Virus record (IMG/VR): IMGVR_UViG_3300037795_000002
Coordinates: 1-30,458 of that record
DNA length: 30,458 nt
From: a virus
Strand: one strand, 5' to 3'
Made by a program: the position numbers and the translations under genes. The notes under the pieces are model-generated. The model searched no databases. It had not been told where the DNA came from and saw only the letters and a list, made by a program, of their open reading frames with translations. Of this stretch, positions 7,181-26,532 are shown piece by piece; the first letter of the stretch is position 1; the number at the start of each line of letters is the position of its first letter.

Positions 7181-9808
7181 ATGTCACAAATCGTTTCTTA
7201 CGTCAGTCCGGGCAGTTCGACTGACAACCAATTACGCACGCAAACCTCATCACGCTCTGCGGCATACGATCCTGTAGACAAGCTGCGCATATCGCAGCCA
7301 CAGGCGTTGATCGACACCGACTTTGAGTACGGCACGCAGCCGACCAAGTGGGAATCAATCTCGCTGCAGAACAACCGCCCAAGCTGCTACTACATCCCGC
7401 AGCAACCGTTGACGATCACAGGCATCACGGGTCTGAACACGCTGAACGGTGGATTCACGTTGGCGGGTACGTTTGTCCTCGCCACGGGCGATGTTATTTT
7501 CGTTCAAAATCCTCTCAACAATGATTGCAGCGGTTGGCTGTTTGTTTCTACAGGCGGCACGAACTCATGCGTTGTGCAGACGGCGGTGGGTACGACTATC
7601 CCCGCAACAAACTTTTTTAATACCGCAGGCACATACGTCTACAAAGGTGTATTTTTCTCTGCTTGTGGTTTTGGTCTTAGTGGCACTTCCGCAGTAACGA
7701 ACGTAGGCACAAACGTCACGGTTACTACTGCTGACGTTCATGGTCTGAACGCAGGTAGCTTGATTTATGTAATTGGTCTAGGTGGCGGCACTCCTGCACC
7801 TAACGGCGCTTATGTTGTTGCCACAGTTCCTACCGCCAACACATTCACTTATGTTGCGGCAGTTGCGCCAACGGTTGCTATCACCAATACGTCAGGTAAG
7901 GTAAATATTTTTGCACGCCCTGCAGGGTTTGTTGAATCTCGCCCTTATGACGGTGGCGTGGCGTTCTCAGCGGGTGCTACCGTACCCAATCAACAACTGA
8001 TCCGTCAGACTCGCCGCTACTTCCGCTACCAGTCAGGCAAGGGCATTCAATTCTCGACTGGCTCAACATTTAAACCCGCTTTGTTTAATCCCACTTTAGC
8101 GGCAAGCAGCACAGCGGTTGGCGCAACTATTACTGTCACCTGTCAGTTCCCGCACAACTTGGCAACAAGCACTGTCGTGACCGTGGCAGGCGTTGATCAA
8201 GCAGGCTTTAACGGCAGTTTTGTTATTACAAGAACCAGTGCTGTTGCATTTACTTATATTGCCAAAGCAGCGCCATCTGCGACAACGGCGACTGGACTTG
8301 ACATCAAGATTAGTCCGTTTAGTTGGTGGGGTTCAAGCGTTCGCATTGGTTTCTTTGACCTGCAGAACGGTATGTTCTTTGAGTTTGACGGTCAAACTTT
8401 GTACGCCGTGGTGCGCAGTTCAACCACGCAATTAAACGGTCGTGCAACGGTCACCAACAGCGGCACTTATTTAGTCGGAACAGGAACATCGTTCAGCAAT
8501 CAACTGAAGCCTAACGACTACATCGTGATTCGTGGGGCATCGTACAAAGTCATCACAATTATCAGTGATACCTCATTGCAATTTAGTCCTGACTATCGCG
8601 GTGCAACAATCAGTCAAGGTGGCGCGATTGTGTCAAAAACAGTTGACACTCGCGTGCCGCAGTCGCAATGGTTTGACGTTTGTGACGGAACAAGTTCGGC
8701 TAGTAACCCATCGGGTTACCTGCTTGACCTTACTAAAATGCAGATGCTGTACATTGACTACTCTTGGTACGGTGCAGGGTCAATCCGTTACGGTTTCCGT
8801 GGGAAAGACGGCGCAATAGTTTACGTTCATCAGACTCAGAACAACAACATCAAGTACGAAGCCTATATGCGTTCGGGCAACATGGCGGCGCACTACGAGT
8901 CAAATAACCAGTCGGGCGCAACTTACCTAACCGCCACGTTGACTAGCGTCACCACCTCTTCAATGGAAGTGGCTGACACCAGTTCGTTTGCCCCATCGGG
9001 TATTGTCAAGGTTCAGGCAAGCGGTACTACAGCCGTTATTGAGTACATTGCCTACACAGGCAAAACGGCGACATCGCTTACTGGCTTGACCCGCGCTCAA
9101 ACTGGCGGCAATGCTGCCTCAAACTTTACCTTTTCAGCTACTGCCCTAGTTGCTGTTGAGTTTGCGTCATCTGACACCGCTGCGGCTCTTTCGCATTGGG
9201 GTTCATCTGTAATCATGGATGGGCAGTACGATGATGACAAGTCGTTGATTTTCAACTACGGAACAACGACCGCGATCACCACAACGAACACAAATCCGAT
9301 TGTGATCATGGCGATTCGCGTTGCACCCGCTGTTGATAACGGCACGGTCGGTCTGTTGGGCTTGAAAGAAACCATCAACCGTATGCAGTTGACGTTGAGT
9401 TCATTGGGTCTGTACACCACAGGCGCAGGGTACTTGATCAACCTGATCATCAACGGATTTGCTTCGGGTGCTACTTCGGGCAGTTTCATTTCTCCGATTC
9501 AGCAAGCCAACGGTATCACCTCTTCGTTGGCGCAGATTGCGGTCAACACCAATGCGGTGACAGTGACGGGCGGCGAGTCGGTGTTCGCGGCTTACTCCAA
9601 CACTACAGGCAATACCACGTTGGACTTGTCGATTGTGCGTGACTTGGGCAATTCGATCTTGGGTGGCGGCACGACCAACACTGTGCCAACATCTGCGGCG
9701 GGATTCTACCCTGATGGGCCAGACATCCTGTACATCGTAGCCACGCCGTTGGCTGCAACATCATCAACCATTTTGGCTCGTCTTAACTGGAAAGAGGCAC
9801 AGGCTTAA
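7181..9808 (+). CDS. Large virion structural protein (tail/neck associated)
   Basis: 875 residues. The N-terminus carries YDPVDKLRISQPQALIDTDF followed by EYGTQPTKWE, a signature I associate with a large structural protein of T4-like cyanophages and other aquatic phages whose role is not settled. The rest is beta-rich and modular. Two related repeats, about residues 170-230 and 307-370, share an HGL/HNL turn, an NG(A/S) strand and an FTY(V/I)A end. A separate small module follows (about 420-480, GTYLVGTGTSFSNQLKPNDY). The C-terminal part includes FLGLKET-like (GLLGLKETINRMQL) and ends in a compact domain. No enzyme motif was seen. It starts 20 bases after a terminator, with an AGGTGA ribosome site. 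A role in the neck or tail periphery is inferred. Confidence 0.7.
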   Translation: MSQIVSYVSPGSSTDNQLRTQTSSRSAAYDPVDKLRISQPQALIDTDFEYGTQPTKWESISLQNNRPSCYYIPQQPLTITGITGLNTLNGGFTLAGTFVLATGDVIFVQNPLNNDCSGWLFVSTGGTNSCVVQTAVGTTIPATNFFNTAGTYVYKGVFFSACGFGLSGTSAVTNVGTNVTVTTADVHGLNAGSLIYVIGLGGGTPAPNGAYVVATVPTANTFTYVAAVAPTVAITNTSGKVNIFARPAGFVESRPYDGGVAFSAGATVPNQQLIRQTRRYFRYQSGKGIQFSTGSTFKPALFNPTLAASSTAVGATITVTCQFPHNLATSTVVTVAGVDQAGFNGSFVITRTSAVAFTYIAKAAPSATTATGLDIKISPFSWWGSSVRIGFFDLQNGMFFEFDGQTLYAVVRSSTTQLNGRATVTNSGTYLVGTGTSFSNQLKPNDYIVIRGASYKVITIISDTSLQFSPDYRGATISQGGAIVSKTVDTRVPQSQWFDVCDGTSSASNPSGYLLDLTKMQMLYIDYSWYGAGSIRYGFRGKDGAIVYVHQTQNNNIKYEAYMRSGNMAAHYESNNQSGATYLTATLTSVTTSSMEVADTSSFAPSGIVKVQASGTTAVIEYIAYTGKTATSLTGLTRAQTGGNAASNFTFSATALVAVEFASSDTAAALSHWGSSVIMDGQYDDDKSLIFNYGTTTAITTTNTNPIVIMAIRVAPAVDNGTVGLLGLKETINRMQLTLSSLGLYTTGAGYLINLIINGFASGATSGSFISPIQQANGITSSLAQIAVNTNAVTVTGGESVFAAYSNTTGNTTLDLSIVRDLGNSILGGGTTNTVPTSAAGFYPDGPDILYIVATPLAATSSTILARLNWKEAQA

Positions 9809-11268: not shown

Positions 11269-11597
11269 TGGGCAGATTCTTATACACCCTTGGCAATGCG
11301 TCACTATCAATCGCAATTTGCGACCGATGCCGCATGAAGAGGGCGTATTCGGTCATCAGCCAAGACGGGAACATACCCGGTCTTCGCGTGTGCAACGAAG
11401 GCTGCTCTGACCAGTTTGACCCGTACCGCCTGCCTGCGCGACAGACAGAGAAAATATCAATTCGCTTCCCCCGCCCTGATGTGAGTGTTATTGCCGCGCA
11501 CAATGCGCTAGTCACCAACCCATCGGGCAGCTTGGGTATCGCGCTTGAACAAACATCCAATCCGATTGACGGAAACCTTGACACATTGAGTCCATAA
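11268..11597 (+). CDS. Small zinc-binding (four-Cys) phage protein
   Basis: 109 residues, one-base overlap with both neighbours. C18-x2-C21 and C42-x3-C46 form a four-cysteine zinc-ribbon-like site (ICDRCRMKRAY, then GLRVCNEGCSD), followed by FDPYRLPARQTE and RFPRPD. This arrangement is a recurring small protein next to tail-connector genes in short-tailed phages. The C-terminal 40 residues are polar and low complexity. Zinc binding is inferred from the Cys spacing; the biological role (virion component or regulator) is unknown. Confidence 0.7.
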   Translation: MGRFLYTLGNASLSIAICDRCRMKRAYSVISQDGNIPGLRVCNEGCSDQFDPYRLPARQTEKISIRFPRPDVSVIAAHNALVTNPSGSLGIALEQTSNPIDGNLDTLSP

Positions 11598-14500
11598 TGG
11601 CTGACGTAAGAATCTCCGCACTACCTCAACCACAGACCGCTCTCACAGGCTTGGAATTAGTTCCTATTGTGCAGAATGGTTTGACCGTACAAACAACCAC
11701 TGCGGCGATTGCGGCGCTAGGTGGCGGTGGCGGTGGTGGTGTGACATCGTACTCAGGCGGCACGACAGGTCTTACCCCATCAACAGCCTCGACAGGCGTT
11801 GTGACGCTTGCAGGCATCTTGAACGCAGCAAACGGCGGCACGGGCGTTACAACGCTTACAGGGCTTGCATACGGCAACGGTACAGCGCCGTTCACCGCAG
11901 CAACTGCCGCGCAAGTGGTTGCCGTCATAAGCACAACCGCCGTTGCAGTATCAACAAACATTGCGGGTGGTTTGGCGGGATCAGTTCCATATCAAACAGC
12001 GGTCAACACCACCGCCTTGTTGCCTGTCGGAACAAACGGTCAAGTATTGGCGCTTGTGGGCGGTTTGCCTGCTTGGACATCTGTTGCGGGTACTGGCGAT
12101 GTGATTGGGCCTGCAAGTGCTACCGCAAACGGTATTGCCTTGTTTAACGGCACAACGGGAAAATTGCTAAAAGATAGCGCAACTACTGACGGCTTAATCA
12201 ATGGTTTAACAATCGGCAAAGGACTGTACGGCGGCGGCGGTGGTTTTAGCAACACCGCATTAGGTGTTCAGACGTTGATGTTCAACGTATCGGGGCAATC
12301 CAATACGGCAGTTGGTTGGGGTGGGTTGCAGGCGATCACATCAGGCAACAGAAACACCGCAGTAGGAGTTAGCGCACTTAGTACATCGCAAACTGGAGAT
12401 AACAATACCGCTATTGGGCAGGGCGGTTTAGAAAAATTGGTAACAGGAAGCCAAAACACAACGCTAGGAACGCAAACAGGAAGCAATATCACCACAGGTA
12501 GTTCTAACACTTTTGTTGGACACTACGCAGGTATTAGCATATTAACTGGCAGCAACAACACCATTCTTGGTGCAGGATCAACTACTGGAACATCGTTATC
12601 AGACACCGTAATTATTGCCAACGGAACAGCAGAAAGACTTAGAATCCTTAACACAGGTGCGTGGTCACTTGGCGCAACTGGTACGAACTACGGTACTTCG
12701 GGTCAAGTATTTACATCAGGTGGCGCAGCCGCAGAACCGTCATGGACAACCATTGCAGGAACAGGTACGGTTACTTCTGTCAGCGGCGCAGGCGGCACGA
12801 CTGGCTTGACGTTAACGGGTGGGCCAATCACCACTTCAGGCACGTTGACGATTGGCGGCACATTGATAGCAGCTAACGGTGGCACAGGTCAGTCTTCATA
12901 TACCGTGGGCGATATCCTATACGCATCAACCACAACAGCTTTGTCCAAGTTGGCTATCGGTACAAGCGGTCAAGTTTTAACCGTAACAGCGGGTGTTCCT
13001 ACTTGGGCGGCTGCGGGTAGCGGGTCGGGCGATGTGGTTGGGCCTGCAAGCGCGACAGATAACGCGATTACACGATTTAATTTAGCAACAGGCAAACTAG
13101 TTCAAAACTCGCTTGTGACTGTTGCCGATGATGGCGCGATTACTGCGCCCGGTGTCAGTAGCGTCATTCCTTTTTACTACCTTAACCAAGCTGCATTTCC
13201 TAGCGCCACTACTTACCACGGTGCTTTAGCGCACTCTCACGCAGATGGGGCAATGTATTTTGCTCACTCAGGCGCATGGGTGCGGATGTTAAATGACGGT
13301 GGCGCATTAGGTACGCCAAGTTCAGGAACTTTAACGAACGCAACGGGTTTACCTCTTACGACAGGCGTGACTGGAACATTACTAGTTGCAAACGGCGGTA
13401 CAGGTGTAGCAACACTCTCAGGACTTGCATACGGCAACGCTACAGCAGCGTTTACGGCGGCAACCGCTGCGCAAGTGGTTACTGTTATTGGTACAAATGC
13501 TGTAGCACGCGCAACAAATATTGTGAATGGCGTTGCGGGTTCATTGCCTTATCAAACAGCGGCAAACACAACTGCTATGATTGGTATTGGCACAGCAGGT
13601 CAAGTATTGACTGTTGTTGCGGGAGTACCCGCATGGGCGGCTGCGGGTGCAGGAACGGTTACTTCCGTTGGCGGCACTGGCACAGTCAACGGATTAACGC
13701 TGACAGGAACGGTCACTACCACAGGTAACTTGACGTTGGGCGGCACGCTTGATTTGTCATCACCTCCCGCAATCGGAGGAACTACAGCGGCGGCGGGTAC
13801 GTTCACCACATTACGAGTCAATTCAACAATTTCACTTGCAGGTTCAACAGGAACTGCAGGTTATGTATTGACCTCGCAGGGTGCAAGCGCACCCACTTGG
13901 ACAGCGGTAACAGGAACGGGAACGGTCACAAGCGTGAGCGGTTCGGGCGGCACTACGGGCTTGACGCTCACGGGTGGGCCAATCACTTCATCAGGCACGC
14001 TGACGCTTGGCGGTACATTGGTTGTCAGTAACGGAGGCACGGGTGTAGCAACACTCAGCGGAGTAGCGTTCGGTAACAGCACATCAGCTTTTACTGCAGC
14101 TACTGGCGCTCAACTTGCCACGGCAATTGGTACGACAACGATAACCAACGCAACAAATGCAACAAATATTTTAGGTGGTGCTGCGGGGCAAATACCTTAT
14201 CAAACTGCCGCAGGTACAACCTCATTTATTCCTTTGGGATCGTCTAATTATTGGCTGTCATCGTCAGGCACAACGCCTGCATGGGTATTGCCTCCCGTTG
14301 TTACATTTAGCGGTGGAACGACTGGATTTACGCCATCAACAGCATCGTCAAACACTATTGTTTTAGCAGGAACTTTGGTAGCTGCCAATGGCGGTACGGG
14401 TCAATCTTCTTATGCTGTAGGCGACATTTTGTACGCCTCAACCACAACCGCGCTATCTAAACTTTTAATTGGCACAGCAGGACAGGTTTTGACTGTTGTT

Positions 14501-14833
14501 GCAGGTGTACCTGCGTGGACAACCCTTGGCGGTTCAGGTACGGTCACATCGGTCAGCGGTTCGGGTGGAACGACTGGTTTAACGCTCACGGGTGGGCCAA
14601 TCACAACAACGGGTACTTTGACACTAGGTGGCACTTTAATCGTTGCCAACGGCGGTACAGGGGTTGCCACCATTGCTGCCAAAGGTGTAGTGATCGGCGC
14701 AGGCACATCAGCGGTTACCAACGTGGTGTCAACAAACGGTACAAACGCACCGACTACCTCTTACGGAATCTTGACCACAGACGTATCAAACAACCCAGTT
14801 TGGACAGACGTAATTGACGGAGGAACATACTAA
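11597..14833 (+). CDS. Long modular tail fibre protein with YadA-like repeats
   Basis: 1078 residues. Residues 1-40 (MADVRISALPQPQTALTG, then ELVPIVQNGLT) are a typical virion-anchoring N-terminus of phage fibres, followed by a seven-Gly hinge. About residues 205-330 form left-handed beta-roll repeats of the YadA/Hep_Hag kind (SNTALGVQTL, SNTAVGWGGL, RNTAVGVSAL, NNTAIGQGGL, SNTFVGHYAG). The rest is built of shaft modules separated by six ANGGTG-type hinges, including three nearly identical 42-residue units (residues 390-431, 775-816, 981-1022). A unique patch near 520-560 contains YHGALAHSHADGAMYFAHSG. Such proteins form homotrimers that touch the host surface. There is no enzymatic or self-cleaving domain, and no tail-fibre chaperone is obvious. 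It is the first of the fibre cluster. Confidence 0.85.
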   Translation: MADVRISALPQPQTALTGLELVPIVQNGLTVQTTTAAIAALGGGGGGGVTSYSGGTTGLTPSTASTGVVTLAGILNAANGGTGVTTLTGLAYGNGTAPFTAATAAQVVAVISTTAVAVSTNIAGGLAGSVPYQTAVNTTALLPVGTNGQVLALVGGLPAWTSVAGTGDVIGPASATANGIALFNGTTGKLLKDSATTDGLINGLTIGKGLYGGGGGFSNTALGVQTLMFNVSGQSNTAVGWGGLQAITSGNRNTAVGVSALSTSQTGDNNTAIGQGGLEKLVTGSQNTTLGTQTGSNITTGSSNTFVGHYAGISILTGSNNTILGAGSTTGTSLSDTVIIANGTAERLRILNTGAWSLGATGTNYGTSGQVFTSGGAAAEPSWTTIAGTGTVTSVSGAGGTTGLTLTGGPITTSGTLTIGGTLIAANGGTGQSSYTVGDILYASTTTALSKLAIGTSGQVLTVTAGVPTWAAAGSGSGDVVGPASATDNAITRFNLATGKLVQNSLVTVADDGAITAPGVSSVIPFYYLNQAAFPSATTYHGALAHSHADGAMYFAHSGAWVRMLNDGGALGTPSSGTLTNATGLPLTTGVTGTLLVANGGTGVATLSGLAYGNATAAFTAATAAQVVTVIGTNAVARATNIVNGVAGSLPYQTAANTTAMIGIGTAGQVLTVVAGVPAWAAAGAGTVTSVGGTGTVNGLTLTGTVTTTGNLTLGGTLDLSSPPAIGGTTAAAGTFTTLRVNSTISLAGSTGTAGYVLTSQGASAPTWTAVTGTGTVTSVSGSGGTTGLTLTGGPITSSGTLTLGGTLVVSNGGTGVATLSGVAFGNSTSAFTAATGAQLATAIGTTTITNATNATNILGGAAGQIPYQTAAGTTSFIPLGSSNYWLSSSGTTPAWVLPPVVTFSGGTTGFTPSTASSNTIVLAGTLVAANGGTGQSSYAVGDILYASTTTALSKLLIGTAGQVLTVVAGVPAWTTLGGSGTVTSVSGSGGTTGLTLTGGPITTTGTLTLGGTLIVANGGTGVATIAAKGVVIGAGTSAVTNVVSTNGTNAPTTSYGILTTDVSNNPVWTDVIDGGTY
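12764..12889 (+). repeat. 126-bp in-frame fibre module, copy 1
   Basis: Encodes the 42-residue unit GTVTSVSGAGGTTGLTLTGG onward to an AANGGTG hinge. Copies 2 and 3 are at 13919-14044 and 14537-14662, with identical length and conserved stretches such as CGGGTGGGCCAATCAC. Confidence 0.85.
13919..14044 (+). repeat. 126-bp in-frame fibre module, copy 2
   Basis: Second copy of the 42-residue unit (GTVTSVSGSGGTTGLTLTGG to a VSNGGTG hinge), differing from copy 1 mainly at silent positions and a few conservative substitutions. Confidence 0.85.
14537..14662 (+). repeat. 126-bp in-frame fibre module, copy 3
   Basis: Third copy of the 42-residue unit (GTVTSVSGSGGTTGLTLTGG to a VANGGTG hinge). A diverged fourth relative (GTVTSVGGTGTVNGLTLTG) lies near 13650-13770. 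Confidence 0.85.
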
Positions 14834-15012
14834 TGGCTACAACAGTTAAGATTCGATTGACCACCACGGTAGGTGCGCCATCATCCACGACTGGCATGGT
14901 TCAAAACGAGTTGGTGGTTAATTCGACTGACGGCACGATCTCGTTTTTAAACACGGCAGGAACGGCAGTAATCAAGTTGGATCAAGCCACCTGTCAACAC
15001 ACTCTGATTTAA
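14833..15012 (+). CDS. 59-aa stand-alone fibre N-terminal-like module
   Basis: A short frame starting on the last base of the fibre stop (TAATG) and ending four bases before the next gene. Its product (begins MATTVKIRLTTTVGAPSS, then MVQNELVVNSTDGTISFLN) aligns by eye with the first 50 residues of the next protein (MATKILIKRSTTAAAVPTTG, then LAAGELAMNTTDGYLFLKN). It also resembles the start of the product at 16420 (LAFGELAINITDGKLF). This module normally attaches a fibre or adhesin to the virion. Here it stands alone with no shaft or tip, ending in a Cys-containing tail. It may be a capping or spacer subunit, or the remnant of a fibre gene that lost its distal part. Confidence 0.7.
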   Translation: MATTVKIRLTTTVGAPSSTTGMVQNELVVNSTDGTISFLNTAGTAVIKLDQATCQHTLI

Positions 15013-15016
15013 AAAC

Positions 15017-15970
15017 ATGGCAACCAAAATCCTAATCAAGCGGTCAACCACCGCAGCGGCAGTACCCACCACGGGTCAGTTGGCAGCGGGTGAACTTGCC
15101 ATGAACACGACTGACGGTTACCTGTTTCTCAAAAACACCGCAGGTACTAACGTATGGAAGTTTGGAACAGCTTCGGGTGGCGGCGGCAGTTATTTTGCAG
15201 ATATGCTTGCTGTTGGCGGCGGCGGTAGCGGTGGTGGCTTTAGCGGCGGCGGCGGTGGCGCAGGCGGGTATCGCTATGCTACTAATATTGCCGTTTCTGT
15301 TGGTCAAGTAATCACGGTCACAGTCGGTGCGGGTGGTGCGGCAGCAGCTAGTAACATAGAGGGCAACTCCGGCGCGAACACCACGATCACGACAGGAATT
15401 ATTTCCAATGGCGGCGGTAAGGGTGGCGGCAACTCAGGTTCATCGCCTTACCCACAAATTGGCGGCATTGGTGGTTCAGGTGGCGGTAACTCAAACAGCG
15501 GCTTCGGTACGGTCGGCGCGGTTGGGTGGGGCATACCGGGTCAAGGCAACAACGGCGGCAACGCGAACGCTGCGAACGGCGGTGGCGGCGCAAGTGCTGC
15601 AGGTAGCACGACAGGGCCGGGCGGTGCAGGCAACGTCAATCCGATTACAGGCTCTACTGTCGGGCAAAACGTAGCAGGCATATACTACGTGGCAGGCGGC
15701 GGCGGTGGCGGTACGGCAGCAGGAACGGGCGGTAATGGCGGCGGCGGCGCGGGTGGGGCTACTACATCTACCGCAGGTAGTCCGAACACGGGTGGAGGCG
15801 GCGGTGGAAACGGCAACGGCGCGGGTGCAGCAGGCGGCTCAGGCGTTGCTGTGATTGTTGTGCCGCTTGCAAATTACTCAGGCACGATTACGGGGTCGGT
15901 AACTGCCACCACCGTTGGGGCATTCAAGCACATTGTTTTCACTGCAGGCACAGGAACTTACACGGGATAA
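15017..15970 (+). CDS. Glycine-rich tail adhesin / fibre protein
   Basis: 317 residues. Residues 1-50 are the attachment module (TKILIKRSTTAAAVP, ELAMNTTDGYLFLKN). The rest is dominated by Gly runs (VGGGGSGGGFSGGGGGAGG and many similar), interleaved with short strands such as YRYATNIAVSVGQVITVTVG, and it ends in a SGVAVIVVPLANYSG beta motif. Glycine-rich domains closing with a GxGVVIIRYP-like strand are common in phage tail tips. The Salmonella phage S16 gp38 adhesin shows that such runs can fold as packed polyglycine II helices with receptor loops. Receptor binding is inferred; Gly content is clearly seen. Confidence 0.75.
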   Translation: MATKILIKRSTTAAAVPTTGQLAAGELAMNTTDGYLFLKNTAGTNVWKFGTASGGGGSYFADMLAVGGGGSGGGFSGGGGGAGGYRYATNIAVSVGQVITVTVGAGGAAAASNIEGNSGANTTITTGIISNGGGKGGGNSGSSPYPQIGGIGGSGGGNSNSGFGTVGAVGWGIPGQGNNGGNANAANGGGGASAAGSTTGPGGAGNVNPITGSTVGQNVAGIYYVAGGGGGGTAAGTGGNGGGGAGGATTSTAGSPNTGGGGGGNGNGAGAAGGSGVAVIVVPLANYSGTITGSVTATTVGAFKHIVFTAGTGTYTG

Positions 15971-15973
15971 ATC

Positions 15974-16417
15974 ATGCAATGGTTGATAAATGAATTGTTG
16001 GTGACAAATGACATCGCGCCCGACATGGTGACGCGAGTCAAATATTCGGTCACAGATACTCAAGATGGATTAGTCGGTGTCGTCACCAACTTCATAAACA
16101 TTGTGGTTGCTGATCCAAGTAATTACACCCCATATGCTGATATTACCGAAGTGCAAGCTATTGGATGGGTGCAAGACACTCTAGGGGTGTCAGGAGTAGC
16201 ATCAACGGAAGAGCAAGTACAGGCATCAATTGATGGGCAAAAAATACCAGTAGCACAACCCGCGCCTTTGCCGTGGGTAACCACAATTACGGAAGATTTA
16301 GGGGCATCAGGTATTGCATCAATGGAAGAGCAAGTGCAAGCATCGATTGATATCCAAAAAATACCAGTACCTCAACCCGCGCCTTTGCCGTGGTCAACCA
16401 CAATTACGGAAGAATAA
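15974..16417 (+). CDS. Fibre-region protein, DUF7936-like, with tandem C-terminal duplication
   Basis: 147 residues. The N-terminal 70 residues form a small beta domain (NELLVTNDIAPDMVTRVKYS, then ADITEVQAIGWVQDTLG). This matches a family I recall as DUF7936, found beside tail-fibre genes and usually ending in one PPLPW-type tail. Here that tail is present twice: a 39-residue unit (VASTEEQVQASIDGQKIPV, then PLPWVTTITE) is followed by a second copy (IASMEEQVQASIDIQKIPV, then PLPWSTTITE). Function unknown; the position suggests a fibre accessory protein or assembly chaperone. Start ATG three bases after the previous stop. Confidence 0.7.
   Translation: MQWLINELLVTNDIAPDMVTRVKYSVTDTQDGLVGVVTNFINIVVADPSNYTPYADITEVQAIGWVQDTLGVSGVASTEEQVQASIDGQKIPVAQPAPLPWVTTITEDLGASGIASMEEQVQASIDIQKIPVPQPAPLPWSTTITEE
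16181..16414 (+). repeat. Two tandem 117-bp repeats within a gene
   Basis: Copy 1 is 16181-16297 and copy 2 is 16298-16414. The period is exactly 117 bases (39 codons) with about five in six bases identical by manual comparison, including the shared block CCCGCGCCTTTGCCGTGG. The frame is kept. Confidence 0.88.
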
Positions 16418-16419
16418 TC

Positions 16420-17094
16420 ATGGCTGCAGTCGGATTTAACACACTTAGTCTGTACTACACAGCAACAGCGGCGCAAACACCAAGCGGTGTCAATTTGGCG
16501 TTTGGCGAACTAGCGATCAACATCACAGACGGAAAGTTGTTTTACAAGGACAACTCAAGCGTGGTGCAAGTCCTCGCGCAAAAGGGTGTCGTGACGAGCA
16601 TAGTCGGTACGGCGAATCAAGTGGTTGCCACGCAGTCGGGGTCAGGCCCGTTCACCTACACGCTCTCCACTCCACAAAGCATCGGCACGACCTCTGACGT
16701 TCGGTTCAATTCAATTGGGCTTGGCACGGCAGCATCAGGCGTTGCGGGTGAGGTTCGCGCCACGGGTAACGTCACGGCGTACTACTCTTCGGACATCAAG
16801 TTCAAAGAGAACGTGCATCCAATTTACGATGCCCTAAATACGGTAGCGCGGATTGGCGGCAAGACGTTTGACTGGAAAGAGGACTACATTCAGTCGCATG
16901 GCGGCATGGATGGCTACTTTATCCGCAAGGCTGACTTCGGGTTCATCGCGCAAGACGTTCAAGCGGCGTTTCCCCTCGCCGTGCGCACGCGACCTGATGG
17001 TTCGTTGGCGGTTGATTACGCAAAGATGATCGCGTTGGCGTTTAGCGCGATTGCCGAACTCAAGTCACAAGTTGAAGCGTTGAAAAATGCCTAA
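16420..17094 (+). CDS. Tail fibre with S74 intramolecular chaperone domain
   Basis: 224 residues. I chose ATG 16420, two bases after the previous stop (junction TAATCATGG), over an upstream GTG at 16390 that would overlap by 28 bases. Residues 1-50 are the attachment module (LAFGELAINITDGKLFYKD), followed by a short shaft. Residues 121-224 are a peptidase S74 / intramolecular chaperone domain: SSDIKFKENV, TFDWKEDY, FGFIAQDVQAAFP, AVDYAKMIALAFSAIAELK. S124 and K129 have the Ser/Lys spacing of the known catalytic pair, which releases the chaperone after the trimer folds. The mature fibre would be only about 123 residues, so this may be a short spike or a carrier used next to longer fibres. Confidence 0.88.
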   Translation: MAAVGFNTLSLYYTATAAQTPSGVNLAFGELAINITDGKLFYKDNSSVVQVLAQKGVVTSIVGTANQVVATQSGSGPFTYTLSTPQSIGTTSDVRFNSIGLGTAASGVAGEVRATGNVTAYYSSDIKFKENVHPIYDALNTVARIGGKTFDWKEDYIQSHGGMDGYFIRKADFGFIAQDVQAAFPLAVRTRPDGSLAVDYAKMIALAFSAIAELKSQVEALKNA

Positions 17095-18565
17095 TCCATC
17101 ATCAGGCGCGATCTCTTTAAGCACCATCAATTCGGCATTCGGCTACAGCCCAACCGTACAGATTGACATGGGGCTGTACCCTGTCACGCTTGGTGCGGGT
17201 GCGTCAGCGGGTGGGCAGGCGCAGATGTCAGGGTTCTACTACACCCAAGTCGGCGCAGTACCCGCCACGACCGCCAACGTGGGGTCAGGATCGTCAGGAA
17301 CGGCGCAGCAAGGCATATCCATCGCCCTGTCAAATAACGGGCTTACGTTGGCTGTGGGTGGCAATACGGACAACACAAACATCGGCGCGGTGTGGGTGTT
17401 CACCCGATCAACGGCGACAAGCACGACATGGACTCAGCAGGGTTCAAAGCTAGTCGGAACTGGTGGGGTCGGCACGCCCAAGCAAGGCACTTCTGTGGCT
17501 CTGTCTGCTGACGGAAATTACTTGGTGGTGGGTGGCTCTAACGATAATGGCGGGATCGGCGCGGTGTGGGTTTGGACTCGCAGCGGATCAACATGGACTC
17601 AGCAGACAAAAATAGTTCCCACTGGATACACAGGCACGCCTGCGTTTGGATCGGCTGTAGCAATTCTACCCGACTGTGATTTATTGGCGGTGGGTGCGCC
17701 AAACAATAATAGCGGTCAGGGTGGCGTTTGGATTTTTAGCAGATCAATAACCACTTGGACACAGTTGGCGGCAATTGGCCCCGGTAGCGGCGGCATTTCA
17801 GGTAACGCAGGAACGAGCGTATCACTTGCAAAATGGAAAACACCGAACCAAGCAGGTCAACAATGGATAGTTGCGTTTGGTGCGCCTAATTATGGAACAT
17901 TATTAAATGGAACGTATGCGGGTTTGGCTTATGTTTATTTAGGAGATCCATCATTCCCAACAAGTTGGTCTTATGATGGTGCAGCAACATATTTAGGAAA
18001 TTTTGGTCAACTGCAGGGAACTGGTGCAACAGGGTTAAAAGGTGCGGCGCAAGGTACATCTGTTTCATTATCTGCAAATGGAAATACTTTGGCAGTAGGT
18101 GCGCCGTATGACGATACTTCACCGTCTTATTTGTTAGGTTCAGGTTCTGTATGGATGTTTAGCAGAACTTACGATAGCCCAACAGGATTTCCGTGGACAG
18201 GTGTTTGGTCGCAACAAGCGTTAATTACACCAAACAACATCCCAAGCGGGTTCAGTGGAAACGCCAATTGGGGCGCGGCTGTAGATTTATCTGCAGACGG
18301 AAATGTGTTGGCAACAAGCGGATACGCTTCGGGTGGTGGCAACTATTCAGACGCTATCGGCGTGATGAACGTATTCACTAGGTCAGGCAGCACATGGAAT
18401 TTTAATTCAGGATTTATAAGTGGCTTGTTAATCAACGGCGGTACAGGAACGGGTACGTCATCATGGAAGGGTTACAGCCTAAGTCTAACGGGGAACGGCA
18501 ACTCCATTGCGTTTGGTGCGCCTAAGGATAATTCAAACATCGGCGGTTTTTGGGTGGCGCAATGA
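17087..18565 (+). CDS. FG-GAP beta-propeller tail protein, probable receptor binder
   Basis: 492 residues, overlapping the S74 gene by eight bases. Residues 1-60 form a tail-protein N-terminus (ISLSTINSAFGYSPTVQIDM). From about residue 75 there are seven repeats of the pattern G-x-S-V-x-LS-x-(D/N)G-N-x-L-AVGAP followed by G-x-V-W-x-(F/W)-x-RS-x-x-x-W, for example GTSVALSADGNYLVVGG and GTSVSLSANGNTLAVGAPYD. This is the FG-GAP_2 type, expected to close into a seven-bladed propeller. The last blade is short and stops right after GGFWVAQ. Such propellers often bind sugars or surface proteins. The fourth and fifth blades (about 17880-18200) have AT-richer wobble positions than the rest. Confidence 0.85.
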   Translation: MPNPSSGAISLSTINSAFGYSPTVQIDMGLYPVTLGAGASAGGQAQMSGFYYTQVGAVPATTANVGSGSSGTAQQGISIALSNNGLTLAVGGNTDNTNIGAVWVFTRSTATSTTWTQQGSKLVGTGGVGTPKQGTSVALSADGNYLVVGGSNDNGGIGAVWVWTRSGSTWTQQTKIVPTGYTGTPAFGSAVAILPDCDLLAVGAPNNNSGQGGVWIFSRSITTWTQLAAIGPGSGGISGNAGTSVSLAKWKTPNQAGQQWIVAFGAPNYGTLLNGTYAGLAYVYLGDPSFPTSWSYDGAATYLGNFGQLQGTGATGLKGAAQGTSVSLSANGNTLAVGAPYDDTSPSYLLGSGSVWMFSRTYDSPTGFPWTGVWSQQALITPNNIPSGFSGNANWGAAVDLSADGNVLATSGYASGGGNYSDAIGVMNVFTRSGSTWNFNSGFISGLLINGGTGTGTSSWKGYSLSLTGNGNSIAFGAPKDNSNIGGFWVAQ

Positions 18566-19662: not shown

Positions 19663-20085
19663 ATGTTTAGTATTCGCCGTGTTGATGGGCTACAGGATTC
19701 TCAAGCGGCGCTACTAAAGTGGTTGCAGATTGAAACGCTACCCGGCGACTCTCCGATTGATGTTTCCTGCGGCGCGTGGTGGATTGCTTACTCTGACGGA
19801 AACCCTGCAGGATTCTGTTCAATCAAAAGATCGTCACGGTGGAGTAATGCAGGATACCTCTGTCGCGCAGGAGTGCTTCGTAAGTTTCGTGGCAACGGTT
19901 TGCAAAAAAAATTAATTGCTGTTCGTTTGCGTTATGCAAAACGCGAGGGTTGGCATTGGGTGACCTCTGACACTTACAACAACCCCGCTAGTACCAATAA
20001 TCTCATTTCCTGTGGTTTCCGAATGTACATCCCCTCGCACAAGTATGCGGGTGAAGGCACTATCTATTGGAGAAAGAAATTGTGA
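19663..20085 (+). CDS. GNAT-family N-acetyltransferase (first of two)
   Basis: 140 residues. The central and C-terminal parts fit the GNAT fold: beta strands (AWWIAYSDGNPAGFCSI), then the acetyl-CoA loop R76-G-N-G-L-Q81 at the start of a helix (RGNGLQKKLIAVRLRYAKRE), then TSDTYNNPASTNNLISCGFR. In that last stretch the Asn-rich turn and CGF match the usual cofactor/substrate segment (N-x-x-x-x-x-L-x-x-x-GF). The canonical loop ends in Gly or Ala where this has Gln. Substrate unknown: protein, tRNA, sugar or antibiotic are all possible. It sits between the holin candidate and the phosphoesterase gene, overlapping the latter by four bases. The ribosome site is weak. Confidence 0.8.
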   Translation: MFSIRRVDGLQDSQAALLKWLQIETLPGDSPIDVSCGAWWIAYSDGNPAGFCSIKRSSRWSNAGYLCRAGVLRKFRGNGLQKKLIAVRLRYAKREGWHWVTSDTYNNPASTNNLISCGFRMYIPSHKYAGEGTIYWRKKL

Positions 20086-22875: not shown

Positions 22876-24096
22876 ATGCCTACTTTTACCGATCCGTTTA
22901 CCAATCAGACGATCAGCCCCTCGCAGGTCGGGTATGAGCCGCTGACGATTTCTGCGAACACCACGCTGCAGTGGCCCATCAACGGCAACACGGGCGCGGT
23001 CGCCGCCAACATCATGCAGGTGGTTGCCACTACCGTTGGGCTGTCGCTTGCGATGCCGCCTGCGTTGCAGGTCAGCAACGGTCAGACCTCGCTGATTCAG
23101 AACGTGGGTGCAAACGCATTTACAGTTGTTGACTACAGCGGCAACACCATCGTATCCATCGCTTCAGGAATCGCGCAGTATGTATTTATCACAGACAACA
23201 CTACTACGAACGGCACTTGGTCTAGCGTTACATTCGGTGCGGGTACTTCGTCAGCGAACGCCGCAGCCTTGGCAGGGAATGGTTTAATTGCCCAAAACAC
23301 CACATTAAGCCAGTCGTACCCTGAGAGCGCGGTCAATTCAAGTGCTGTACTAACCGCAACAAACCGCGCTCAGTTCTTGGTGTGGTCGGCGGGGGTTGGA
23401 ACAATCACCTTGCCATCTTCAGCGGTGGTCGGCAACGGTTGGTTTGTCAATGTGCGCAACGGTGGGTCGGGCATCCTTACGGTTACTCCAAGCGGTACGG
23501 ATACGATTGACGGAAACGCCAATAACCAGCTTCAGTTGACCGAATCGATGGTCATTGTGAGTAATGGGTCAAACGGCTACTTTACGTTCGCCTACGGGCG
23601 TTCTAGCGTGTTTCAGTACACGCAGCTATCAAAGTCGGTAACTGGCGGCACAACGACCCTGAGCGCAGTTGAGTACGCCAACGTGGTGCAGCAGTACAGC
23701 GGCACACTGACCTCAAATCAGATTGTCGTTTTGCCATCAACTGTTCAAATTTATTACCTGAACAACACGACATCAGGATCATTCAGCCTGACGTTTAAGA
23801 CGGCGGCGGTCGGTGGCGCTACCGTGGTATTGCCGCAGAACACGACCTTGACGGTTGTGTGCGATGGCACGAACGTATTCAACGCAGGTTCAGCGGCGGC
23901 AGCGGCAATTACTTCGGTGACGGTGAACCCCGGAAGCGCAGGCGCACCCACCATTACTTTTACTGGTGACACATCAACTGGTATTTTTAGTCCATCTTCA
24001 GGCGTGATCGGATTCTCATCGGGCGGCATCAGCTACATGACCATCAGCAGCGCGGGTCTGTTTGTGACATCGGGGATTGCAGGAGGAACATTTTGA
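22876..24096 (+). CDS. Beta-rich virion protein between adaptor and nozzle genes
   Basis: 406 residues. It opens with TDPFTNQTISPSQVGYEPLT and ANTTLQWPINGNTG, a start that recurs in phage tail/neck proteins. Several beta modules follow, with motifs ITLPSSAVVGNGWFVNVRNG and GILTVTPSGTDTIDG that resemble shaft or host-contact modules. The C-terminal 55 residues (PTITFTGDTSTGIFSP, GVIGFSSGGISYMTI) are a short fibre-tip-like motif common at fibre ends. This suggests a tail spike or minor fibre attached to the tail hub, although it is encoded away from the main fibre cluster. Followed by a strong AGGAGG site for the next gene. Confidence 0.65.
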   Translation: MPTFTDPFTNQTISPSQVGYEPLTISANTTLQWPINGNTGAVAANIMQVVATTVGLSLAMPPALQVSNGQTSLIQNVGANAFTVVDYSGNTIVSIASGIAQYVFITDNTTTNGTWSSVTFGAGTSSANAAALAGNGLIAQNTTLSQSYPESAVNSSAVLTATNRAQFLVWSAGVGTITLPSSAVVGNGWFVNVRNGGSGILTVTPSGTDTIDGNANNQLQLTESMVIVSNGSNGYFTFAYGRSSVFQYTQLSKSVTGGTTTLSAVEYANVVQQYSGTLTSNQIVVLPSTVQIYYLNNTTSGSFSLTFKTAAVGGATVVLPQNTTLTVVCDGTNVFNAGSAAAAAITSVTVNPGSAGAPTITFTGDTSTGIFSPSSGVIGFSSGGISYMTISSAGLFVTSGIAGGTF

Positions 24097-25865: not shown

Positions 25866-26089
25866 CCACACCTGATCCTCGCGGTATGTCGTGGGATCAA
25901 TGGTGTGCGCTTATGGCTGAGTTATTTGCTGCGCAAGAGCTTGGTACGCTGCCTGAAGATCGATGGCGCGAGTGGGGTGACAGCATTTCGGGAATCGGCA
26001 ACTTTATGAACTCAGCAGTGCCTAGCACCCATTCGTTTGAAACGTGGCAGGAGTGGGCAGAGAATATGGTTGGGGTAATGAGCATATGA
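25862..26089 (+). CDS. Conserved 75-aa hypothetical protein
   Basis: Begins at GTG 25862, overlapping the nozzle-gene stop (GTGA). The sequence (MTTPDPRGMSWDQWCALMAE, then PEDRWREWGDSISGIGNFMN, ending TWQEWAENMVGVMSI) is Trp-rich and helical, with three related W-x-x-W/D-x-W-type segments. I know this small protein from many short-tailed phages next to the nozzle gene. It may be a tail-tip plug or assembly factor; there is no evidence for a precise job. Confidence 0.75.
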   Translation: MTTPDPRGMSWDQWCALMAELFAAQELGTLPEDRWREWGDSISGIGNFMNSAVPSTHSFETWQEWAENMVGVMSI

Positions 26090-26532
26090 CACCTGAATTT
26101 GCGATTGAGCATATTTGCGATGTGGTTGATGAACTCAAGCCGCTGACGGTTGATCATCACGCCGAAGTGAACTTTTTTAGTGACACAACGCTCGATATTG
26201 ATTGGGATAGGTACGGCAGGGGGCAGAAGATGTACTGCTTCATCACTTGTCGCGTTGGGGGTAAATTAGTCGGGTGGATTGGTTTTTGGGTTCACCCACA
26301 CATTCGCCACAAGAATTACCTAATGGCTTTTGAAGACTGGTACTACTTGAAGCCTGAATATCGCAGGCGCGGGTGGGGCAAGAAAATGTTTGAGAACGCT
26401 GAAGGTGCATTGAAAGCGGGTGGGGTTAAGCGCATTATGGTTAGCTGCAAGACCTACCAAGACTACACGCCCTTGCTTGAGGGTCTTGGCTACATCAATT
26501 ACGAAAAGAATTTTACTAAGGCTACGCAATGA
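26086..26532 (+). CDS. GNAT-family N-acetyltransferase (second of two)
   Basis: 148 residues from ATG 26086, which overlaps the previous stop (ATGA) and is preferred to an in-frame start 42 bases upstream. It shows GNAT features: strands (YCFITCRVGGKLVGWIGFWV), the acetyl-CoA segment LKPEYRRRGWGKKMFENAEG with R95-G-W-G-K-K100, then KRIMVSCKTYQDYTPLLEGL and GYINYEKNFTK. The usual final Gly/Ala of the loop is Lys. It is coupled by four bases to both neighbours, so it is embedded in the tail/ejection operon. GNAT genes at this locus recur in podovirus-like phages, suggesting modification of a virion or host protein. Confidence 0.85.
   Translation: MTPEFAIEHICDVVDELKPLTVDHHAEVNFFSDTTLDIDWDRYGRGQKMYCFITCRVGGKLVGWIGFWVHPHIRHKNYLMAFEDWYYLKPEYRRRGWGKKMFENAEGALKAGGVKRIMVSCKTYQDYTPLLEGLGYINYEKNFTKATQ

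Follow-up and report, generated by a model that had tools for sequence, protein, structure and literature searches.

The phage DNA analyzed here (IMG/VR virus record IMGVR_UViG_3300037795_000002, positions 1-30,458; the window is this whole stretch of 30,458 nucleotides) encodes P1, a 59-amino-acid protein that appears to be a stand-alone docking module. We predict that P1 binds the GGTY tails that end the trimer of the preceding fibre, P4, caps that end, and competes there with the fibre protein P2 and possibly with P3, a reading to which we assign a probability of about 0.45. P1 is under purifying selection and is not decaying.

The fibre gene cluster

The cluster includes the following features.

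11597-14833, + strand: P4, large fibre of 1078 aa, last residues IDGGTY (open reading frame; tail-spike PHROG match, 2.9e-12; homology of the C-terminus)
14819-14830, + strand: codons GGA GGA ACA TAC of the GGTY tail; the same bases form the GGAGG ribosome-binding site of P1
14833-15012, + strand: P1, candidate stand-alone docking module, 59 aa (open reading frame, profile homology, dN/dS, structure model)
15017-15970, + strand: P2, module (first ~52 aa) and glycine-rich tip (residues 57-281), 317 aa (PF21722, 4.1e-12)
15974-16417, + strand: P5, DUF7936 gene between P2 and P3 (PF25590, 2.8e-15)
16420-17094, + strand: P3, module (first ~55 aa) and S74 intramolecular chaperone domain (residues 124-188), 224 aa from the ATG (PF13884, 1.8e-13)
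17087-18565, + strand: P6, FG-GAP repeat protein, an exchangeable gene of the cluster (PF14312, 1.7e-12)

The ATG of P1 overlaps the stop codon of P4 (TAATG). P2 starts 4 nt past the P1 stop and lacks a ribosome-binding site of its own. A sequence-only reading of this DNA had described the first product as the module alone, which agrees with its makeup: a module of ~49 residues and a ten-residue end, DQATCQHTLI. The frames of P4 and P1 differ by -1, but a frameshift fusion of the two was ruled out by inspection, as the joint GGAGGAACATACTAATG contains no slippery heptamer.

Elsewhere in the window, 7181-9808 encodes an 875-aa structural protein with ~39% identity over its length to T4-like cyanophage proteins; the genes adjoining it suggest a different kind of phage (SU10-type adaptor). 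Two acetyltransferase-like genes (19663-20085, for which the match is weak, and 26044-26532) lie inside the structural and lysis region.

The shared N-terminal module

P1, P2, and P3 have a common N-terminal module of ~50 residues. Leave-one-out profiles score 36 bits for P1, 84 bits for P2, and 67 bits for P3, and shuffled sequences (10,000 each) reach at most 16 bits. The pairwise scores of P1/P2 and P2/P3 lie above all 20,000 shuffles, and that of P1/P3 is equalled by 5 of 20,000. The earlier proposal that the open reading frames at 14833, 15017, and 16420 begin with related modules is thus borne out by both the coordinates and these tests, which place the similarity of all three N-termini beyond chance. 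The motif that went with the proposal, ELxxNxTDGxLxFxK, stands in part: EL-x-x-N-x-TDG is common to all three (ELVVNSTDG in P1, ELAMNTTDG in P2, and ELAINITDG in P3), but the full motif fits none of them exactly.

The module belongs to a large family. That of P2 matches 814 of 50,697 phage records, mostly at the N-terminus of distal subunits of T4-type long tail fibres. Among 31 modules, 25 match phrog_1699 and 29 match phrog_29752, and T4 gp37 scores 48 bits against the module profile. P1 reaches this gp37-type family through the module profile (36 bits) and not by a direct PHROG match; on its own it matched nothing in Pfam, PHROGs, or NCBIfam, and a tblastn search of P1 against phages returned nothing, even at E 10. 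The Pfam model Mtd_N (PF18454) is matched by 16 of 50 modules, with one relative above the curated cut-off (27.0 against 26.3 bits), and by none of P1, P2, and P3; the module appears to be related to Mtd_N, yet we do not assign it to that family. In the first set of loci the module is N-terminal, beginning at residue 5 or earlier in 97 of 117 open reading frames. P1 and a typical relative, both modelled with AlphaFold as monomers, have four strands (pLDDT 77 each), and the nearest solved folds are the trimerisation domains of collagen XVIII and XV and Mtd, at scores that are not significant (best Foldseek E 0.30 and 0.51). The top matches of a PDB sequence search, designed 'Cake' propellers, arise from summed short repeats and were discarded as an artefact.

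It is fairly well supported that phage fibres use the module as a small docking domain at the N-terminus, of the kind that opens gp37; it is probably trimerising as well. The docking role put forward in the sequence-only reading gains from the homology to the T4 gp37 N-terminus, the region that the gp36 trimer binds (PMC3004832).

The origin of the three copies is less simple than the repeated local copying suggested earlier. In a weakly resolved module tree (56 columns), P3 groups with the fibres that occupy the slot behind the big fibre in relatives. The AU test rejects a single clade of all three modules (p-AU 0.012), and with it the idea that all three were copied locally in one series; it does not reject a sister pair of P1 and P2 (p-AU 0.477), to which copying may therefore apply.

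Fibres are usually homotrimers. It is conceivable, though rather unlikely in our estimate, that P1 chains instead assemble with P2 (or P3) chains into mixed trimers, giving a docking base that carries fewer than three tips. P1 and P2 have the closest modules in the cluster (score 96), may be sisters, and are produced side by side, and the weak likeness of the predicted fold to trimerisation domains points the same way. The two modules are, however, only ~40% identical, so mixing is not assured.

Selection on P1 and its occurrence

IMGVR_UViG_3300031746_000121 (L005) contains the same intact 59-aa reading frame with the same neighbours and 97% identity. Of 20 base differences from the window, 18 are synonymous and two non-synonymous, giving a dN/dS of 0.028 for this one pair (45.7 synonymous and 131.3 non-synonymous sites). 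The end DQATCQHTLI is unchanged despite three differing codons, and the other two frames across P1 are broken by stops. Because the changes are mostly synonymous, the end residues are kept, and the other frames are interrupted, the sequence of the protein itself matters. No broken version was found in close relatives: the frame is intact in L005, and a second relative, L006, has no such gene.

The 59-aa gene was found in two genomes, the window and L005, both metagenomic contigs. A search of viral contigs for the GGTY-ATG joint pattern returned only L005 and one unrelated gene. The BFVD library contains a 59-aa protein (A0A6J5KWG9) with 39% identity, and weaker matches there include further short relatives of 62, 66, 73, and 82 aa, all of them possibly incomplete. 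In a second sample of loci there is no closed module reading frame below 83 aa, and proteins of 83-111 aa, composed of the module and a small extra domain, are a common class. Several proteins of ~100-110 aa (L173:3001-3318, L176:361-684, L185:3001-3330, and others) join the module to a small domain, NGLSxGPVEIANGxTVEVPxNAxWxIV, that is also found at the end of some full-length fibres; these proteins are perhaps ready-made short caps.

P1 could also be kept mainly as a translational leader, with ribosomes that finish P1 restarting 4 nt on at P2. The arrangement suits this: GGAGG lies at the right distance before P1, P2 has no such site, and the 4-nt gap is identical in the window and L005. An open frame of any sequence would suffice for it, yet the P1 protein is conserved at the dN/dS given above and is itself homologous to a folded domain, and we consider this explanation unlikely as the main one. 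A leader role and a docking role of P1 can coexist.

The fibre slot in relatives and exchange of tips

Relatives of the locus were collected via the neighbouring adaptor protein; some of these loci are near-identical. The C-terminus of the big fibre is GGT[FY] in 21 of 23 complete cases, and the next gene begins with a module wherever the contig extends, its complete products being 254-930 aa. P1 lies in the equivalent position, directly behind the shaft gene P4 with stop and start overlapping. The window and L005 are the only members in which the slot gene is 59 aa; a full fibre is otherwise normal in the family. Among seven family contigs searched whole, five have one module, one has two, and L005 has three. 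In larger phage contigs, homologues of the P4 C-terminus (60-65% identical) end in DTIDGGSY, and 73 nt further on comes a fibre of 974 aa or more that carries the module.

That P1 sits exactly in the slot of the relatives' full tipped fibre would be expected if it were a functionless leftover of such a fibre after loss of the tip, one of the origins offered in the sequence-only reading. As a decaying remnant this is contradicted by the purifying selection on the protein, which extends to the ten residues beyond the module, and the 59-aa form predates the split of the window and L005; we regard it as very unlikely. An old tip loss followed by a new use of P1 would fit.

The window is mosaic, with some blocks resembling L005 and others L006. 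The end of P4, P1, the P2 module, and the DUF7936 gene match L005 at 84-90%. The fibre of L006 has a different C-terminus without a GGT[FY] tail; that genome lacks the P4 end, P1, and P2, including its module, and its DUF7936 gene is too diverged for DNA alignment. The part comprising P3, P6, and the gene after them is L006-like, with matches at 86-97%; in L005 these genes are diverged or missing. Within P2, the tip is replaced relative to L005: 18% of it is alignable, and it is flanked by the module (89.5% identical) and DUF7936 (85%). This swap between conserved flanks supports the earlier suggestion of exchangeable tips, and the comparison of the locus across relatives thus shows exchange (the P2 tip, against L005) as well as absence (P1 and P2 in L006, P6 in L005).

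Two further features of the cluster were noted. The DUF7936 gene contains a tandem duplication of ~39 residues (EEQVQASIDxQKIPVxQPAPLPWxTTITE), which is missing from its 108-aa homologue in L005. P6 behaves as a unit of gain and loss, being present in L006 and not in L005, and its N-terminus (SGAISLSTINSAFG) resembles a different type of N-terminal module.

The C-terminal tail of the upstream fibre

The end of P4 resembles those of many genes that precede modules. A GG[TSA][FY] end is found in 17 of 28 non-redundant genes upstream of modules and in 8 of 240 other genes; three of these eight do in fact lie ahead of a module gene, in phage records that joined the set once the module search was complete. 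With the pattern fixed in advance, the counts in a separate sample (77 loci) are 21 of 47 before modules and 3 of 164 otherwise (p 4e-13). Pooled, 49 of 76 non-redundant pairs have a GGx[FY] end and 27 do not. The variable tail position also differs with the module: N, D, or Q pairs with IKRR...ELAFNE modules (8/10), and T, S, or A pairs with KRS...GELAxN modules (34/37). Tail type thus tracks module type (8:2 against 3:34, p 2e-5), although the p-values for these tail-module pairs are optimistic because fibre cassettes share ancestry, which leaves the pairs not fully independent.

Vibrio phages 1.208.B and 172P1 encode a serial chain: a GGVY end, an IDGGA[FY] end, a module protein ending in IDGGS[FY], and a module protein with a tip and no tail. 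P3 has a module but the gene upstream of it has no GGx[FY]-type tail, so an adjacent tail is dispensable for some modules.

It is highly improbable that the GGTY or GGTF tail is a mere by-product of a GGAGG ribosome-binding site placed within the end of the upstream gene: tails that abut the next gene are indeed mostly written with GGAGG codons (14 of 19), and window gene 22876-24096 has a GGTF tail before a gene without a module, but where the next gene lies at least 15 nt away (gaps of 15-158 nt) the residues persist with GGAGG codons in just 3 of 27 (p 2.5e-5), and T4 gp36 ends in DFGYY with the ribosome site of gp37 (AAGAGG) outside its end. Because the tail stays without GGAGG codons across gaps, its residues are conserved as protein. 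By analogy with T4, we infer that tail and module also bind each other in the window phage, the GGTY tail of P4 probably being the partner gripped by the P1 module; the sequence-only reading had not named this partner.

The GGTF-ending protein of 22876-24096, the second of this kind (codons GGAGGAACATTT), overlaps the next gene (TTG start at 24093), and its end may be either a further docking tail or merely a ribosome-binding site. In Pelagibacter phage Mosig (L129:3792-4001), the exact position between a fibre end, IDGGSF, and the next module gene is occupied by a lysine-rich protein of 69 aa that has no relation to the module. A literal literature search for GGTF with tail fiber found no paper naming the tail, which given the partial coverage is weak evidence of novelty; no specific paper on a C-terminal fibre docking motif was found, also at partial coverage.

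Proposed mechanism

In the stand-alone docking reading, the module would link its fibre segment to the preceding one through the latter's C-terminal tail (D-x-G-x-[FY]; here IDGGTY). P1 would occupy the GGTY tails with which the P4 trimer ends, where it is a plausible cap, and by competing with the module of P2, possibly also of P3, it would leave a tip on some fibres only. Translation of P2, which has no ribosome-binding site, probably depends on that of P1, so the ratio of caps to tips may be set at translation.

A broader proposal is more doubtful: a D-G-G-x-[FY] tail and a gp37/Mtd_N-type module might form a general, type-matched coupling code, used by many unrelated phages to link fibre segments in gene order, a lone module in some of them serving as a cap that sets the number of tipped fibres. 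If the coupling of tail and module is real, the ends and starts of genes could reveal, for uncultured phages, in what order segments join and which shafts take which tips; by other means, fibre assembly in such phages is difficult to predict. A lone docking module that is maintained would offer simple control over the number of tipped fibres.

Comparison with known systems

The closest known counterpart is T4-type gp37 (phrog_1699), with which the module shares sequence homology and its N-terminal place. P1 directly follows the shaft gene, as gp37 does, and the C-terminus of gp36 is likewise aromatic and contains glycine, although it reads DFGYY and the upstream tail in the window GGTY. In T4-type phages the module always precedes a long fibre, whereas one copy in the window stands alone; because P1 ends ten residues beyond the module, it is a homologue of the gp37 domain and not a gp37-like fibre.

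Mtd, which has a C-type lectin tip, is a second point of likeness: it is among the weak structural matches, and its N-terminal model (PF18454) recognizes the module relatives counted above, unlike the three window proteins.

The N-terminal domain of a phage lyase has the collagen XVIII fold; within a trimer, it has been described as putatively binding the particle (PMC8822698). The predicted fold of the module is similar to this fold in size and strand order, and the lyase domain is, like the module, N-terminal; there is no sequence similarity, and the Foldseek matches are those reported above as not significant.

In the branched tailspike complexes of Ackermannviridae, dedicated N-terminal domains are reported to recruit the other spikes (PMC8825819, PMC11414711). 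The two systems are alike in having several receptor-binding proteins, conserved N-terminal assembly domains, and exchangeable tips. The likeness is one of analogy. Unlike theirs, the contact that we propose in the window would be serial, with a C-terminal tail engaging an N-terminal module.
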